Shown here in pieces: positions 4,742-11,132 of a stretch of 64,000 nucleotides of DNA. Origin of the DNA: Acidisarcina polymorpha (GTDB lineage Bacteria; Acidobacteriota; Terriglobia; Terriglobales; Acidobacteriaceae); NCBI RefSeq assembly GCF_003330725.1, contig NZ_CP030840.1:6752116-6816115 (forward strand), read 5' to 3'. The stretch's first letter is position 1; each line of letters opens with the position of its first letter. Under the pieces are notes generated by a model. That model saw only the letters and a program-made list of their open reading frames with translations, did no database searches and was not told the origin of the DNA. The translations under genes were made by a program, and so were the position numbers.

Positions 4742-4968
4742 ATTTGTTGTGAAGATAGAGGCTGGCTGTGAGATCAAGTAGGCTCAGATCATCTCGGGTG
4801 TCAGCGTTGCTGGGTTTGCTCCATTGCATCAACCGAGAATCGTTCTCGGCGACATCGGCGTTTATGAGGACTGACACTTCGACGAGGTATGTCTGAGAAC
4901 GGAAAAGGTGGGAACTGGCTAGAGTTGCGTATCATAAAGGACGCCATCGTACCTATGCGGAGACGGAC

Positions 4969-5942
4969 TTGAAGTTCAAAGATCGAACGATTAACGCATT
5001 GGCCGACATGATCTGCGGGAATACCGACGCCGGCAAAGAGGTCCTTTTCCCCTACCGGAGCAGCAGCTACATCACACGCTTCTTTCAAGAATGCGATACC
5101 GACTATGTGCACGATGGGACAACGCGCAACGCTTGGGTGGGCAGCACGTTGGTCACAATTCTGGAGGAGCCACAGACAAGCGGCAACGCGCCGCCCGACA
5201 CCTTCGCCCGTGTAATACGCACGCTCATGGATCAGGGCGACAAACAGGACGCGGACCCCGCCCGCGAAAAGGCCATGGCGCTCTTGAACGTGGCTTTGGT
5301 CCGTGAAGGCTACGAAGCGTTTTATGCAGAAGATCGGCAATGCTACCTGAAGCACATTGCGACGAACACGATTGCGCAGCCGGTTCCAAATCCGCACCGA
5401 CCCTTCTCGGCAACCGAGCTGAAACGACGCGGTGACTTAATCGCCTATTTAGACCGCTGTTCAGAAGATGAGCTAATCGGGGAAGTCCTCCTGCCATTGT
5501 TGCGTCAGCTTGGCTTTCATCGCATCACGGCGGCCGGTCATAAAGACAAGGCGCTCGAATACGGTAAAGACATTTGGATGAAGTACACGTTGCCGACAAT
5601 GCACACGTTGTATTTCGGTATTCAGGCGAAGAAAGATAAGCTCGACGCGGCGGGCGACAGCAAAGGATCAAACAAAAACATCGCAGAAATTCATCAGCAG
5701 GCCTTGATGATGCTTGGCCATGAAATTTTCGATCCCGAGACAAACAGTCGTGTCCTAGTGGTCAAATCACCAAAGCTGCAAGGAACTGGCTCGGCGGGAA
5801 GCTCGATGCGACGAAGCGCAGCCAGATCATGTTCATGGACAGAGACGACATTTTGAACCTCTACGTCGTAACCAATCTGCCCCTGCCTGACGGTGCGCTC
5901 CGAGAGCCGATGAAGATCACCGACGATGACATCCCTTTTTAG
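4969..5942 (+). pseudogene. Restriction-endonuclease-like protein, frameshifted near the 3' end
   Basis: The first frame (4969 to about 5760) gives a conserved-looking protein. Its region FHRITAAGHKDKALEYGKDI followed by YFGIQAKKDK (residues about 183-225) resembles the D…QxK core of Mrr-like PD-(D/E)xK nucleases. After VLVV at 5760 the frame is lost, but the next frame continues sensibly (GQITKAARNWLGGK…MFMDRDDILNLY…DDDIPF) to a TAG at 5940-5942. Loss of one G in a GGG run would explain this. The intact protein would be about 324 residues. Start choice is uncertain: 4969 is TTG. It is probably a defence or modification-dependent nuclease; that is inferred from the fold only. Confidence 0.6.
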
Positions 5943-6115
5943 AAATACAACCCCGCGACGGTGCTGAACTTGCGTTTATATCGTACCGAGAAGTCGGCAT
6001 CGCGACCGGAATCTCATAATCGGGTGCCGGATCGACGATCGCCGTCGCAATCGACGTTTCGCGGTACCAATTGTATTCGTAATCAAACCGTCCAACTCGA
6101 CGAACCAATAGCTAG

Positions 6116-7492
6116 CTATTGGGCAGCGGTCCGAAACCTTCTGTAGTGCTTCTGAAGCCACAGGATGGGGGAGACATCCTGCATTCTCAGCTTGATTAGT
6201 TCCTCAAGATCCCGGTCTGAAAGTATCAGCAGAACTTTCCGAGGATTCGAATCATTGAAAATTGAGATTTGCTTCCGAAGCAAGTTATCACCGGGGGGCT
6301 TCCGGGTAACGATGTATCCCAGCCGGCCGATCCTATCGCCTAGATACGTCGCCGCCTGATTAAGAGCTGCCATCGTGAGCTCGTCCGTGTTCTTGACCTC
6401 GAACATGACGAACAATGAGTCGTGGGACGTGCGCACGTAGTCGAGAAACGTCGCGTCAGAGTCGTTCGTGACAATGATATCCCTGCGTTCGGTACCGTCA
6501 ATCGTGCGTTCCTCAAGACGTCCATCGATCAGATCTGGGCAGAACACGAATGTAAGGATGTCGAGGACAAGCTCTTGATACGCTGTTGCGTCAGACTGCC
6601 CTGGAGGAATCGTCGCCAAACGCGTTAGCAGAGACTCTCCCGTGTCAGCCGAGCTATCCGTAAGTGGTGGCAGGATCGGTTGAGCAGCCGCTGCTTGCTG
6701 CTCCCTTTGCTTGACATAGGCGTCGATGATGGAGGTCTCCACGCGACTGGTAGATGTCACCTCTGCCTTTGAGGGCGCGCGTCCGGTCACTCTCCCGACC
6801 CTCTTCCTAGCCTCCAGATATGCCCGAAACTCGGTCTTGACGAAGTTGTCATAGTTGATCCAAGGAAGCTGTCGAACTATCCTGCGAGGCACAAAGAGAA
6901 TTGCTCTCCCATCCTCAGAGTTGACCGGCAAATCATAGTATCCATCGCGCCAGCAGCGCTCTTTTGGATCGTAGACATGGTTGACAGGGACTAACGACCG
7001 GATCGGCAGGTTATGAACCTCGCATTGGCGTTGAGTGTATTGAATTAAGTATTCCTTCAGGATATTTGAAGCGATGTCGCCTACTCGATCAGGCCCTATT
7101 CCCGGAGAGATCAGTTGCATCTCTTCGACGTGCCTGATGCCACGCTCCATAATCGCCGGGGACAATTTCAGCGAGCCGATAAGCAGATTTGTCAGAGTCT
7201 TGCCCAAGCCGGACCCTCTTTTGTTACTCGCGCCATATCCGAAGCCGATTTCTGCCACCTCGGGGAAATCCAATATGTACTTGGCGTCTAGCTCGTCGTC
7301 TTTGGCGATTGCACTAACCCCATCCGCAAAGTGTTCGACAATGCTTGCATGGAGCAACCGTAGTTCTGGGTCCCGACTCTTGAATAGGAGGAAAGGATCG
7401 ATGCATAGAGGCAAATCGCCCACGAGGTGTGGAATGACGAAATCAACCTCGAGCTGTCGCAATTGGGGGAATACGCTGGAATCTTTGGTCAT
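6116..7492 (-). CDS. Unrecognised protein with C-terminal PD-(D/E)xK-like nuclease domain
   Basis: The product has 458 residues. The N-terminal 230 residues begin VDFVIPHLVGDLPLCIDPFL and include FGYGASNKRGSGLGKTL, a Gly/Lys-rich segment that is not a Walker A motif. Residues 225-300 look like a linker rich in Ala, Gln and Thr. The C-terminal part has YQELVLDILTFVF, then GTERRDIIVTN, then FVMFEVKNTDEL (about residues 305-385). This E…D…ExK order is that of restriction-endonuclease-fold DNA cleavers. The start overlaps the upstream partner by four bases (7489-7492), so the two are translationally coupled. It lies inside an antirestriction block on the opposite strand. I infer a phage or plasmid defence role; no named system fits. 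Confidence 0.6.
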   Translation of the reverse strand: MTKDSSVFPQLRQLEVDFVIPHLVGDLPLCIDPFLLFKSRDPELRLLHASIVEHFADGVSAIAKDDELDAKYILDFPEVAEIGFGYGASNKRGSGLGKTLTNLLIGSLKLSPAIMERGIRHVEEMQLISPGIGPDRVGDIASNILKEYLIQYTQRQCEVHNLPIRSLVPVNHVYDPKERCWRDGYYDLPVNSEDGRAILFVPRRIVRQLPWINYDNFVKTEFRAYLEARKRVGRVTGRAPSKAEVTSTSRVETSIIDAYVKQREQQAAAAQPILPPLTDSSADTGESLLTRLATIPPGQSDATAYQELVLDILTFVFCPDLIDGRLEERTIDGTERRDIIVTNDSDATFLDYVRTSHDSLFVMFEVKNTDELTMAALNQAATYLGDRIGRLGYIVTRKPPGDNLLRKQISIFNDSNPRKVLLILSDRDLEELIKLRMQDVSPILWLQKHYRRFRTAAQ

Positions 7493-8304
7493 TTCTGATC
7501 TGGCTCGTATGTGATTCCATCTTTTGGAGGCTCGTAAGACGGAATACCAACTCGATCCAACTTCTCAAAATTGAAGAATACCTCGTCGCCATGCTTCCGA
7601 AACCACGCGTCTGAGATGGGGCCGTCAATCTTCGCTTTCACCTCGGATTTACGGACGTACTCGTCATATTCTTCCGTCTGATCCTCACCTTCTTCCCCAT
7701 CCTCTTCGGTAAGCCCAGAATCGTCTTCTTCTTCCTCAACATCGTCCGAATCGCTACCGTCATCATCATCGTCGTCGCTCGCTACATCCTCTTGCTCGTC
7801 TTCATCGTTGTCAGAGGTGTCGGATTCCTCTTCATCGCTGACCTCGTTATGAAAATCAACCTCCTCCTGCTCGGCGACTCTCAAGGCAGAAGCGATCGTC
7901 TGTAGCTCACTTCCTATAGAGAAATGACCTTTTGTTTCCACCTCTAACATCGAAGTAAAACGTTCGCTAGTCTGTTGAAGGATTCGGAGTGATAGCAGGA
8001 GATCGGGATAACTCGGGTTGTCGCCAGCAGGCACGAAGGATTTCAAACGACCTAGGTAAGCGTCTCGAAATATGAGCGCCTTAGCATCCGCTATCTGCGC
8101 ATTGACAACCTCTACGAGCAGATCGGAGGGAGGCACCACCGACTTGCTTTTGGTGAGTTTATCGACTTCTTCGTACAGACCTCGGAGCTGGCTCGTCTGT
8201 GCCAAGTGATTCTGGTGAGCCTTCCGGATGGCGTCTCCGAACTTCCCGTGTTTATCCAGTGCGGCTATAGCTGAATCCAACTGCTCTCTTCTCGAAAATT
8301 CCAT
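7489..8304 (-). CDS. Acidic coiled-coil partner of the nuclease-like protein
   Basis: The product has 271 residues and no recognised family. Residues 1-135 are predicted helical (QLDSAIAALDKHGKFGDAIR and LRGLYEEVDKLTKS), typical of a coiled coil. Residues about 150-215 are an uninterrupted acidic tract of Asp, Glu and Ser (DEEESD…DDDDDD…EEEEDD). The last 55 residues are ordered again (ISDAWFRKHGDEVFFNFEKL). AAGAGGCGGCAG precedes the ATG. A polyacidic arm can mimic DNA or occupy a nucleic-acid-binding surface, so it may hold the downstream nuclease inactive; that is inference. It is the first gene of a two-gene operon and overlaps the nuclease gene. Confidence 0.6.
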   Translation of the reverse strand: MEFSRREQLDSAIAALDKHGKFGDAIRKAHQNHLAQTSQLRGLYEEVDKLTKSKSVVPPSDLLVEVVNAQIADAKALIFRDAYLGRLKSFVPAGDNPSYPDLLLSLRILQQTSERFTSMLEVETKGHFSIGSELQTIASALRVAEQEEVDFHNEVSDEEESDTSDNDEDEQEDVASDDDDDDGSDSDDVEEEEDDSGLTEEDGEEGEDQTEEYDEYVRKSEVKAKIDGPISDAWFRKHGDEVFFNFEKLDRVGIPSYEPPKDGITYEPDQK

Positions 8305-8639
8305 CTGCCGCCTCTTTGGCTCGGGATTCCACCTCGCCTATATCGGGTCTCCCATACAGCCTCGACGGGACCGGTTACTATTTTCGCACGCAGACGAACG
8401 CACGACAGCGCGAACTGTCTATTACTGAATATTGGTGTCCTGCTGCTGAGTCGCGTGGTTCTTGGTCGCTTGGAAAGAGAAGCATCGATTGGTCCCGTGA
8501 AGTCGGCCAGCGTCCACGAATGTCTCCGCTCCACCTGCCTCTGCGCGCCCTATTCCTACCCGCAACGTACGCCCGAAGAACAACTGCCAAAGCAATCTCC
8601 GCGCGGTTCGCGCTAATGCAAGGAAACCAAGCCTACTGA
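8305..8639. other. Intergenic, upstream of the nuclease cassette
   Basis: A 107-codon frame on the plus strand covers most of it but shows no family pattern and no ribosome site. The region must contain the promoter of the leftward cassette; I cannot point to convincing -35/-10 boxes. Confidence 0.3.
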
Positions 8640-8860
8640 GGGACTCCGTCCCTGGCGCGCGACAAGAGGCACCCCAATCTTCCGCGCTTCGCTTGTGCAG
8701 ACCTCCGCAACGCTACGCCCCCTCCACTCCGCTGATCGCTCCGTTCCAAGGGTGGGGAACCCCACCTCTTGCACTTGCCGCCCCTGCTGGCGTGGGCCAG
8801 GGCCAAGGCGTGTTTGTTAGCAAACACAGCACAGCCATTCAAAAACGGAGGAACTACCCA
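8640..8860 (+). repeat. Leader copy B, homologous to the leader before the ArdC-like gene
   Basis: The final 110 bases align with 1985-2102. Both have GGGCCAAGGCGTGT, then a TGT.AG.A stretch, a CACAGC word, CCATTCAAAA, then GGAG and the start codon. Further upstream both share TCTTCCGCGCTTCGCTTGTGC-like words (around 8679 and 1916). Two unrelated genes thus share one type of regulatory leader, which argues for coordinated expression. Confidence 0.6.
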
Positions 8861-9067
8861 ATGAGCAGCACGACAGCAAATCCCTACCGCATCAGCTTGA
8901 CCGAAATGCTGAAACAAGAAGGACGCACCTTTGAGGCTATGGCCGAAGAGGTGATGTTTGGCGACGCGAACGCACTCGCGCTTTGTACCGAGCATTGCGA
9001 GGTGGAACCAGACGGCACATGCCCCCACGGTTGCCCCTCCTTCATGCGAGCTGCAGGCCTCATCTAG
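8861..9067 (+). CDS. Small cysteine-containing mobile-element protein
   Basis: The product has 68 residues. The ATG at 8861 is preceded by AACGGAGGAAC. The C-terminal half carries a compact Cys/His cluster: CTEHCEVEPDGTCPHGCPS (residues about 42-60), four cysteines and two histidines that could bind one zinc. Similar short proteins accompany DUF3560-type genes on plasmids and ICEs. Function is unknown. It lies 47 bases before the DUF3560 gene and shares a leader with the ArdC-like gene, so it probably belongs to the same early-transfer regulon. Confidence 0.65.
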   Translation: MSSTTANPYRISLTEMLKQEGRTFEAMAEEVMFGDANALALCTEHCEVEPDGTCPHGCPSFMRAAGLI

Positions 9068-9114
9068 CACCGACCCTACCACCGCACCATACGACCCGAA
9101 GGAGAGAAAACCCG

Positions 9115-11132
9115 ATGAGCTACACCGCTACCTATTCCCCCGAAGACAACAAACTCCGCCTCTACTCCAACAACCCGCCTCGACAGCGAGACGTATGCTC
9201 GCGTGAAAGCTGCCGGTTTCATTTGGGCACCAAAGCAAGACCTATTCGTCGCGCCGATGTGGACACACAGCCGCGAGGATTTGCTTATTGAGCTGGCCGG
9301 GGAGATCGAAGACGAAGACAGGAGCCTAGTAGACCGCGCCGAGGAACGCGCCGACCGCTTCAGCGACTACAAAGAGAGCCGCATCGAAGACGCGCAACGC
9401 GCACATGATGCCGTCCACCGCATCGCCGACAATATCCCGTTTGGTCAGCCTATTCTCGTCGGCCACCACAGCGAACGCCATGCCCGGAAGGACGCCGAGC
9501 GCATCGAGAACGGCATGAGGAAGACGGTCCAGATGTGGCAGACCGCCCGTTACTGGGAACAACGCGCAGCAGGAGCACTCCACCACGCGAAGTATAAGGC
9601 GCTTCCCGGCGTCCGCCATCGCCGCATTAAGGGATTGGAAGCCGACAAACGCAAGCAGGAGCGCAACAAACAAGAAGCCGAGATGTGGCTAAAACTCTGG
9701 ACTAAATGCGCCAACGAACCGGACAAGGAACTCCAGGCTAAGGTTGCTCTTCGCATCGCTGCGATGTGCCATCTACACATGCCACGCAAGGAAGGCGACC
9801 GCGAAGACTTCCAGCACACCCCGAGCGCATACGACGCGCTACAGGGCAGTTTCCCGACACTCTACCTACCCCGCACCTTGGACGAGGTTCTAGCGGTTGC
9901 TCTCGAAACTTACCCTCGTGTCATTCCCACTTATGACCGCTGGATCGACCACTATACGAACCGTATCGCTTACGAGAAGGCAATGCTGGGGGAGACTGGA
10001 GGCCTCGCCGCCGACCGATTCAATTTTGAAGTTGGGGGCAAGGTCTTTATTGGAGATGAGTGGCTTGTAATTCTGAAGATCAACAAGACCGGCGACGCCA
10101 TCAGCAGCCTAACCACTACACCGCGCCGTTACTTCTACGGGAGCAAATACAAAGCCGGTATCGAGAGCGTCAAGGATTATCAGGCACCGAAGCCCGAGGA
10201 GACCGCAGCAGTCAAGGCAGCTAGCAAGCTCCCCCCCGATGTGCAACTATCCCGGCGACGGCTTCAAACACATGACGACAGACGAATGGAAGCGAAAGAA
10301 GATGTCCGACGTTCCACAGTCTACGACTCACGCCGCGACCGATACCCACGGAGCGTACCGCACCCGCTCGACATGGGCCGGAAACTGGAAGACCGTTTCT
10401 GTCTATCTCACCGACGCCAAGCGTATCGACCCACCCCCGAAGCAAGCTCCGTTGACCCCAGCGGAGCCCACCGCCCCCGAGACGCTTGCAACGATGGCGC
10501 AAGACCTGAAGGCACAAAACCCAGTCCCGACGCCGCACACACCGCGCCAGCATGACGAGCGCATCCCCTCGCACGATGAACTGCACGAAATGAAGAAGAC
10601 CGCCGCTCAGGGCGTCGTGATCGTAGCCGTTCCGCAACTCTTCCCCACTCCGCCCGAGTTGGCAGACCGTATGGTCGCGCTTGCGGACATTCGCCCCGGG
10701 CAACAGGTTTTAGAACCCTCCGCAGGAACAGGCCGAATCATTGATGCGATTCGCCGCAATGCTCACGGCTACGCGATCACAGCTGTTGAGCTGAATTGCA
10801 ATATGGCCCACCGGCTCCGCACGATTGATTGTGTCGATGACACACGGCAGGCCGATTTCTTGGAGTGCAACGGCGATCTAGGAACATTCGACCGCATTGT
10901 TATGAATCCTCCGTTTTCGAACGCAGATGATATCAAGCACATTATGCACGCCTTGAAGATGTTGAAGCCCGGAGACCGACTGGTCGCCATCTGTGCCAAC
11001 GGCCCGAGGCAGAACGACAAGCTAAGGCCCATCGTTGAAGCGCGCGGCGGTATCTGGGAAGAATTGCCTTCCGATACTTTCATCAGCACAGGTACAAGCG
11101 TTCGCACCGTGCTCCTCATGCTGGACGCATAA
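9115..11132 (+). pseudogene. DUF3560 protein fused to a class I methyltransferase, two frameshifts
   Basis: ATG 9115 follows GGAGAGAAAACCCG. The frame MSYTATYSPEDNKLRLYS breaks at about 9175 and resumes as LDSETYARVKAAGFIWAPKQ, typical of DUF3560; one extra C in a CCC run accounts for it. It then runs through a long helical, Arg/Lys/Glu-rich middle to about 10232. There a run of seven C breaks it again; six would keep frame. The third segment continues CNYPGDGFKHMT, then a SAM-dependent methyltransferase with LEPSAGTGRIIDAI and the catalytic NPPF (N6-adenine type). Intact length would be about 671 residues. Such proteins are typical plasmid/ICE cargo and may methylate incoming DNA. Both shifts are single-base and could be sequence errors. 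Confidence 0.7.

Follow-up and report, generated by a model that had tools for sequence, protein, structure and literature searches.

Two overlapping genes in the soil bacterium Acidisarcina polymorpha probably form a divergent PDC-M36 system. Such a system would be a mobile nuclease module of two genes, directed against phages or plasmids and controlled by an obligate helical regulator. We call the genes A and B, and the whole 64,000-nucleotide stretch that was analyzed the window. This reading draws on the domain composition, active-site conservation, co-inheritance, unit mobility, and defense-island linkage that we established for the pair: protein A matches PDC-M36A, the head of B points to PDC-M36B, residues D338, E365, and K367 of A are invariant, defense systems and prophages surround the homologues, and the two genes transfer as a unit. 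A PDC is a phage-defense candidate; the series, attributed to a 2024 preprint by Payne et al. (doi 10.1101/2024.01.29.577857, as cited in PMC12988326), is described in PMC12988326 as mostly unvalidated. Within the literature library that we searched, no paper names PDC-M36. With this assignment, a pair missed by standard models is tied to a catalogued defense candidate.

ORF analysis placed both genes leftward in the order B then A, spanning exactly positions 6116 to 8304 (Table 1). As the earlier note on this DNA had stated, they overlap by four bases (ATGA). Between the window and a Granulicella relative (L030), we obtained Ka 0.045 and Ks 0.84 for gene A, Ka 0.083 and Ks 0.53 for the B head, and Ka 0.22 and Ks 0.77 for the acidic part of B. 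This is purifying selection on A and B, and thus both are genuine genes. Promoter and terminator scans gave a signal no better than shuffles, while the Rfam scan returned no element and the tRNA scan returned none.

Table 1. Positions in the window of the A-B cassette, its predicted domains, and the mobile unit.
Feature	Position	Strand	Description
Gene A	6116..7492	-	458 aa, ATG start; PDC-M36A homologue with an N-terminal conserved domain and a predicted C-terminal PD-(D/E)xK-type nuclease domain
Gene B	7489..8304	-	271 aa, ATG start; divergent PDC-M36B with acidic extension
A N-terminal domain	6743..7492	-	Residues 1-250 (approx.); common to other PD-(D/E)xK-type proteins; without Pfam family
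A nuclease domain (predicted)	6119..6640	-	Residues about 285-458; conserved residues and AlphaFold2 model
B helical head	7867..8304	-	Residues 1-146; conserved PDC-M36B-like part
B acidic tract	7639..7884	-	Residues about 141-222; predicted disordered, from composition and low pLDDT
B C-terminal tail	7492..7638	-	Residues 223-271; FNFEKLDRVGIP motif, found in the L031 and L032 partners too
Mobile unit	6116..8393	.	97% identity with Edaphobacter L029 over exactly this span; backbone alongside 84%

Protein A matched the PADLOC model PDC-M36A (PDLC04597) over its full length, with an E value of 2.1e-77 across residues 11 to 455. Pfam and NCBIfam searches with A gave no curated-level match, and PDB sequence searches gave nothing useful, whether the query was A or an A profile. 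In an alignment of 11 homologues, D338, E365, K367, and N368 were invariant. D338 is the D of GTERRDIIV, and E365 and K367 are the E and K of FEVKN, so this part of the E...D...ExK-like pattern read in the earlier note held. Its first element did not, since the Glu of YQELV is variable (G, R, or K in the closest relatives of A). The neighboring Q306/E column looks to be the better candidate for motif I.

The PD-(D/E)xK signature, D...(E/Q)xK in an alpha-beta core, is present in A. In the AlphaFold2 model (pLDDT 67.7, moderate confidence), the active-site residues fall on a helix-strand-strand core consisting of helix 299-317, strand 336-341 with D338, and strand 361-366 with E365-V-K367-N368. 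The top Foldseek match of this model was EcoT38I (E value of 0.039, probability 0.90), a weak score, and FokI, Shedu, and EndoMS were among the better matches, all of which had E values above 0.001 and are likewise weak. A BFVD fold search was uninformative beyond weak nuclease and RPB5-type matches. With the Foldseek scores this weak, it is mainly motif conservation and topology that lead us to predict a PD-(D/E)xK-type nuclease domain in the C-terminal half of A. By fold comparison, the nuclease core of A resembles those of Shedu (SduA), EcoT38I, and FokI, but no sequence relationship to these proteins was detected, the N-terminal domain is a different one, and A and B make up a two-gene system.

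A is modular. Its N-terminal domain recurs in proteins of 470 to 500 aa that end in a different ExK-type domain (L004 to L006 and L054 to L056). Its C-terminal nuclease module recurs in a 689-aa ATPase of a Klebsiella IncFIB phage-plasmid (L009; PDC-M36A profile E value of 1e-13), which has an AAA/STAND-like ATPase fused where A has its N-terminal domain. That ATPase (L009 2477 to 4546; ORC-CDC6/STAND-like, ending in the A-type nuclease domain) represents a group found on dozens of plasmids and in two phage records.

For protein B, AlphaFold2 gave a confident helical head at residues 5 to 146 (helices 5-53, 61-77, and 99-146) and low confidence at residues 149 to 230. No PADLOC model matched B directly, Pfam and NCBIfam gave no curated-level match (the weak ones were low-complexity acidic matches), and a comparison of B with the PDB gave generic coiled coils. 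The type-II B proteins are those of the window, L029, L030, L031, and L032. When a profile of their heads was aligned to the canonical PDC-M36B profile, hhalign returned a probability of 95% (E value of 4.1e-8), compared to 0.2% for the reversed control and 1.3% for the best of 40 column-shuffled controls. In a search of 554 ORFs with the canonical-B HMM, four of the five type-II B proteins ranked directly below the true B proteins and above every unrelated ORF. These were L032 (5e-10), L030 (1e-5), the window, for which the E value was only 1e-3, and L029. The L031 partner scored at noise level (0.99) and is linked only via its similarity to the other type-II B proteins. By these comparisons, the head of B is remotely homologous to PDC-M36B. 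The head is also the most constrained part of B. The alternative that B is unrelated to known partners was ruled out by the hhalign result and the HMM ranking.

With A as PDC-M36A and the B head as a remote PDC-M36B, the cassette would be a divergent PDC-M36 system. It shares with the canonical loci the end-to-end match of A, the remote match of the B head, adjacent genes, and mobile and defense contexts. The B gene adjoins and overlaps that of A, and its assignment comes from hhalign and the HMM ranking, not from the PADLOC models directly. There are also clear differences. B lies upstream of A in the window and in L029 to L032, whereas canonical B lies downstream (L002, L003, L010, L011, L033, L034, L044, L045, and L047). 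Canonical loci carry either one small B protein or two, each of 105 to 144 aa, compared to a single larger B here, which bears an acidic disordered tract. Window A is only 26 to 30% identical to the canonical clade. PDC-M36 thus exists in two layouts, and we file the window locus as a variant. The earlier note could not match the pair to a named defense system and supposed that it might be new. The system type is already catalogued, while its variant with the B-A order, a single large B, and an acidic arm appears to be undescribed so far.

Compared to an Edaphobacter MAG (L029), the cassette had 97.1% DNA identity over 6116 to 8393, whereas the common RepB/SSB backbone was 84.1% identical and the sequence between backbone and cassette was unalignable. 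Compared to L030, the window was alignable only over 6112 to 8317, at 83%. This contrast between cassette and backbone, together with the cassette-only alignment, implies that the two genes are a transferable unit. The swap of the cassette from one related element to another is clear-cut evidence for the completeness of this unit. B adjoins A in every PDC-M36-clade A locus with readable flanks, and with the transfer as a unit this bears out the proposal that B is a co-inherited partner and the pair a functional unit. No B adjoins a more distantly related A-like protein in G551, and the partnership therefore appears to be characteristic of the PDC-M36 clade. Matches to B were found in 2 of 298 sampled genomes of the order besides the window's own, one of them decayed. 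Matches to parts of A were commoner than those to B; they occurred in 10 genomes, counting that of the window, out of 150 from the family. One decayed copy of the cassette, with in-frame stop codons, lies in L026 (G293), and its state suggests recent loss.

The element in the window carries ArdC, a RepB primase, SSB, DUF3560, a methyltransferase-like gene, and SRAP. The description of these genes as an anti-restriction block is therefore supported for ArdC and not for the rest. Homologues occur in the mobile and defense contexts that had been expected. In L030, which is a 92% relative, a CBASS cyclase and 2TM effector (SLATT) lie directly upstream of the pair, an AbiL-like pair lies farther upstream, and PDC-S31 lies downstream. 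ShosA is near the pair in L032, a type II restriction-modification system neighbors it in L034, and L044, L045, and L047 have prophage-like or integrase settings. Positions 1468 to 8431 of L030 make up a compact defense island, with a RES-domain gene farther out. Two elements carry genes that resemble each other near the cassette, one at L030 11310 to 12137 (RES domain by Pfam) and one at L029 1255 to 2103 (alike by eye).

In the mechanism that we propose, B would bind A as an obligate subunit, probably via the A N-terminal domain, and would keep the nuclease inactive or correctly assembled. A trigger provided by invasion would then release or activate A, which would cut DNA, the invader's and perhaps the host's too. 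A putative role for B as inhibitor, regulator, or sensor is plausible. The acidic tail of B, tethered near A, could screen the DNA-binding groove of A and so tighten the off state. Since relatives lack the tail, it would be dispensable for the basic mechanism.

The earlier note had described a helical head and an Asp/Glu tract of about 65 residues in B, and the model and the composition agree on both. It had also taken the acidic protein for an inhibitor, DNA mimic, or sensor of the nuclease; the idea that the tract defines the role of the partner is not supported. The most acidic 65-residue stretch of B, which starts at residue 153, holds 39 Asp/Glu and no Lys/Arg. The same measure over 58 ORFs of the window averaged 11.2 +/- 5.0 Asp/Glu, with 19 as the next highest, and this ORF-wide comparison ruled out a chance feature. 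The tract is kept in the L029 and L030 partners, and in L030 its acidity persists despite 59% identity there. These features would suit a B whose main function is that of an acidic DNA mimic, inhibiting A or other nucleases. However, the L032 partner, encoded in a prophage beside an A that is 47% identical, has no tract (net charge -7, at most 15 Asp/Glu in any 65 residues), none of the 14 canonical B proteins examined has one, and in L031 it sits at the C-terminus. An acidic surface, the criterion for a DNA mimic, is not conserved across B homologues, and the constraint on B falls mostly on its head. Thus, a DNA-mimic role is unlikely as a conserved function, and we regard it as quite improbable as the main role of B. 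The tract reads in these alignments as a lineage-specific addition, not the core, and a lineage-specific tuning role is possible. This sets the conserved core (the B helical head and the A nuclease and N-terminal domain) apart from a striking but dispensable tract. We are doubtful of a stronger version, a new PDC-M36 regulatory subtype in which the regulator head is fused to an acidic arm that masks the DNA-binding face of the nuclease electrostatically until a phage signal removes or displaces it. A literature search for an acidic nuclease partner found nothing matching.

A strict toxin-antitoxin pair, in which B neutralizes a self-toxic nuclease A and the cassette serves element maintenance and not phage defense, is a possibility that we take seriously but hold to be the less probable one. 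B ahead of A with a 4-bp overlap is the usual antitoxin-toxin order, yet the canonical relatives are ordered A then B. The coiled-coil head and disordered tail of B resemble many antitoxins, and the mobile elements that carry the cassette have RepB, SSB, and ArdC genes; on the other hand, as a type II toxin a two-domain nuclease of 458 aa would be large, and the homologues adjoin defense systems, although defense and toxin-antitoxin activity are not exclusive. We think it unlikely that A is a restriction enzyme, either modification-dependent or sequence-specific, to which B is an accessory subunit, as opposed to part of a regulated abortive system. The PD-(D/E)xK fold has restriction enzymes as its best structural matches, and the mobile unit has no cognate methyltransferase gene, which would fit a type IV-like enzyme. 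However, Pfam and NCBIfam detected no known recognition domain in A, and a conserved obligate partner such as B is unusual among type IV enzymes. The divergent PDC-M36 system is thus the reading that we prefer.

Several neighboring genes were also recorded. A 295-aa ORF of the window (4969 to 5856, plus strand) has no Pfam or PADLOC match. By eye it has an Abi-like N-terminus followed by a D...QxK-like stretch, its C-terminus stops abruptly as after a frameshift, and it is possibly a decayed defense gene. In L053, the A-like protein (4747 to 6177) belongs to another subtype and lacks a B, and the adjoining gene encodes a 1,404-aa NERD and protein-kinase protein (6481 to 10695) that resembles BREX PglW. 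Proteins whose small Ser/Ala/Lys-rich repeats resemble each other are encoded close to two distinct N-terminal-domain superfamily members (L007 5900 to 6148 and L055 3058 to 3642).
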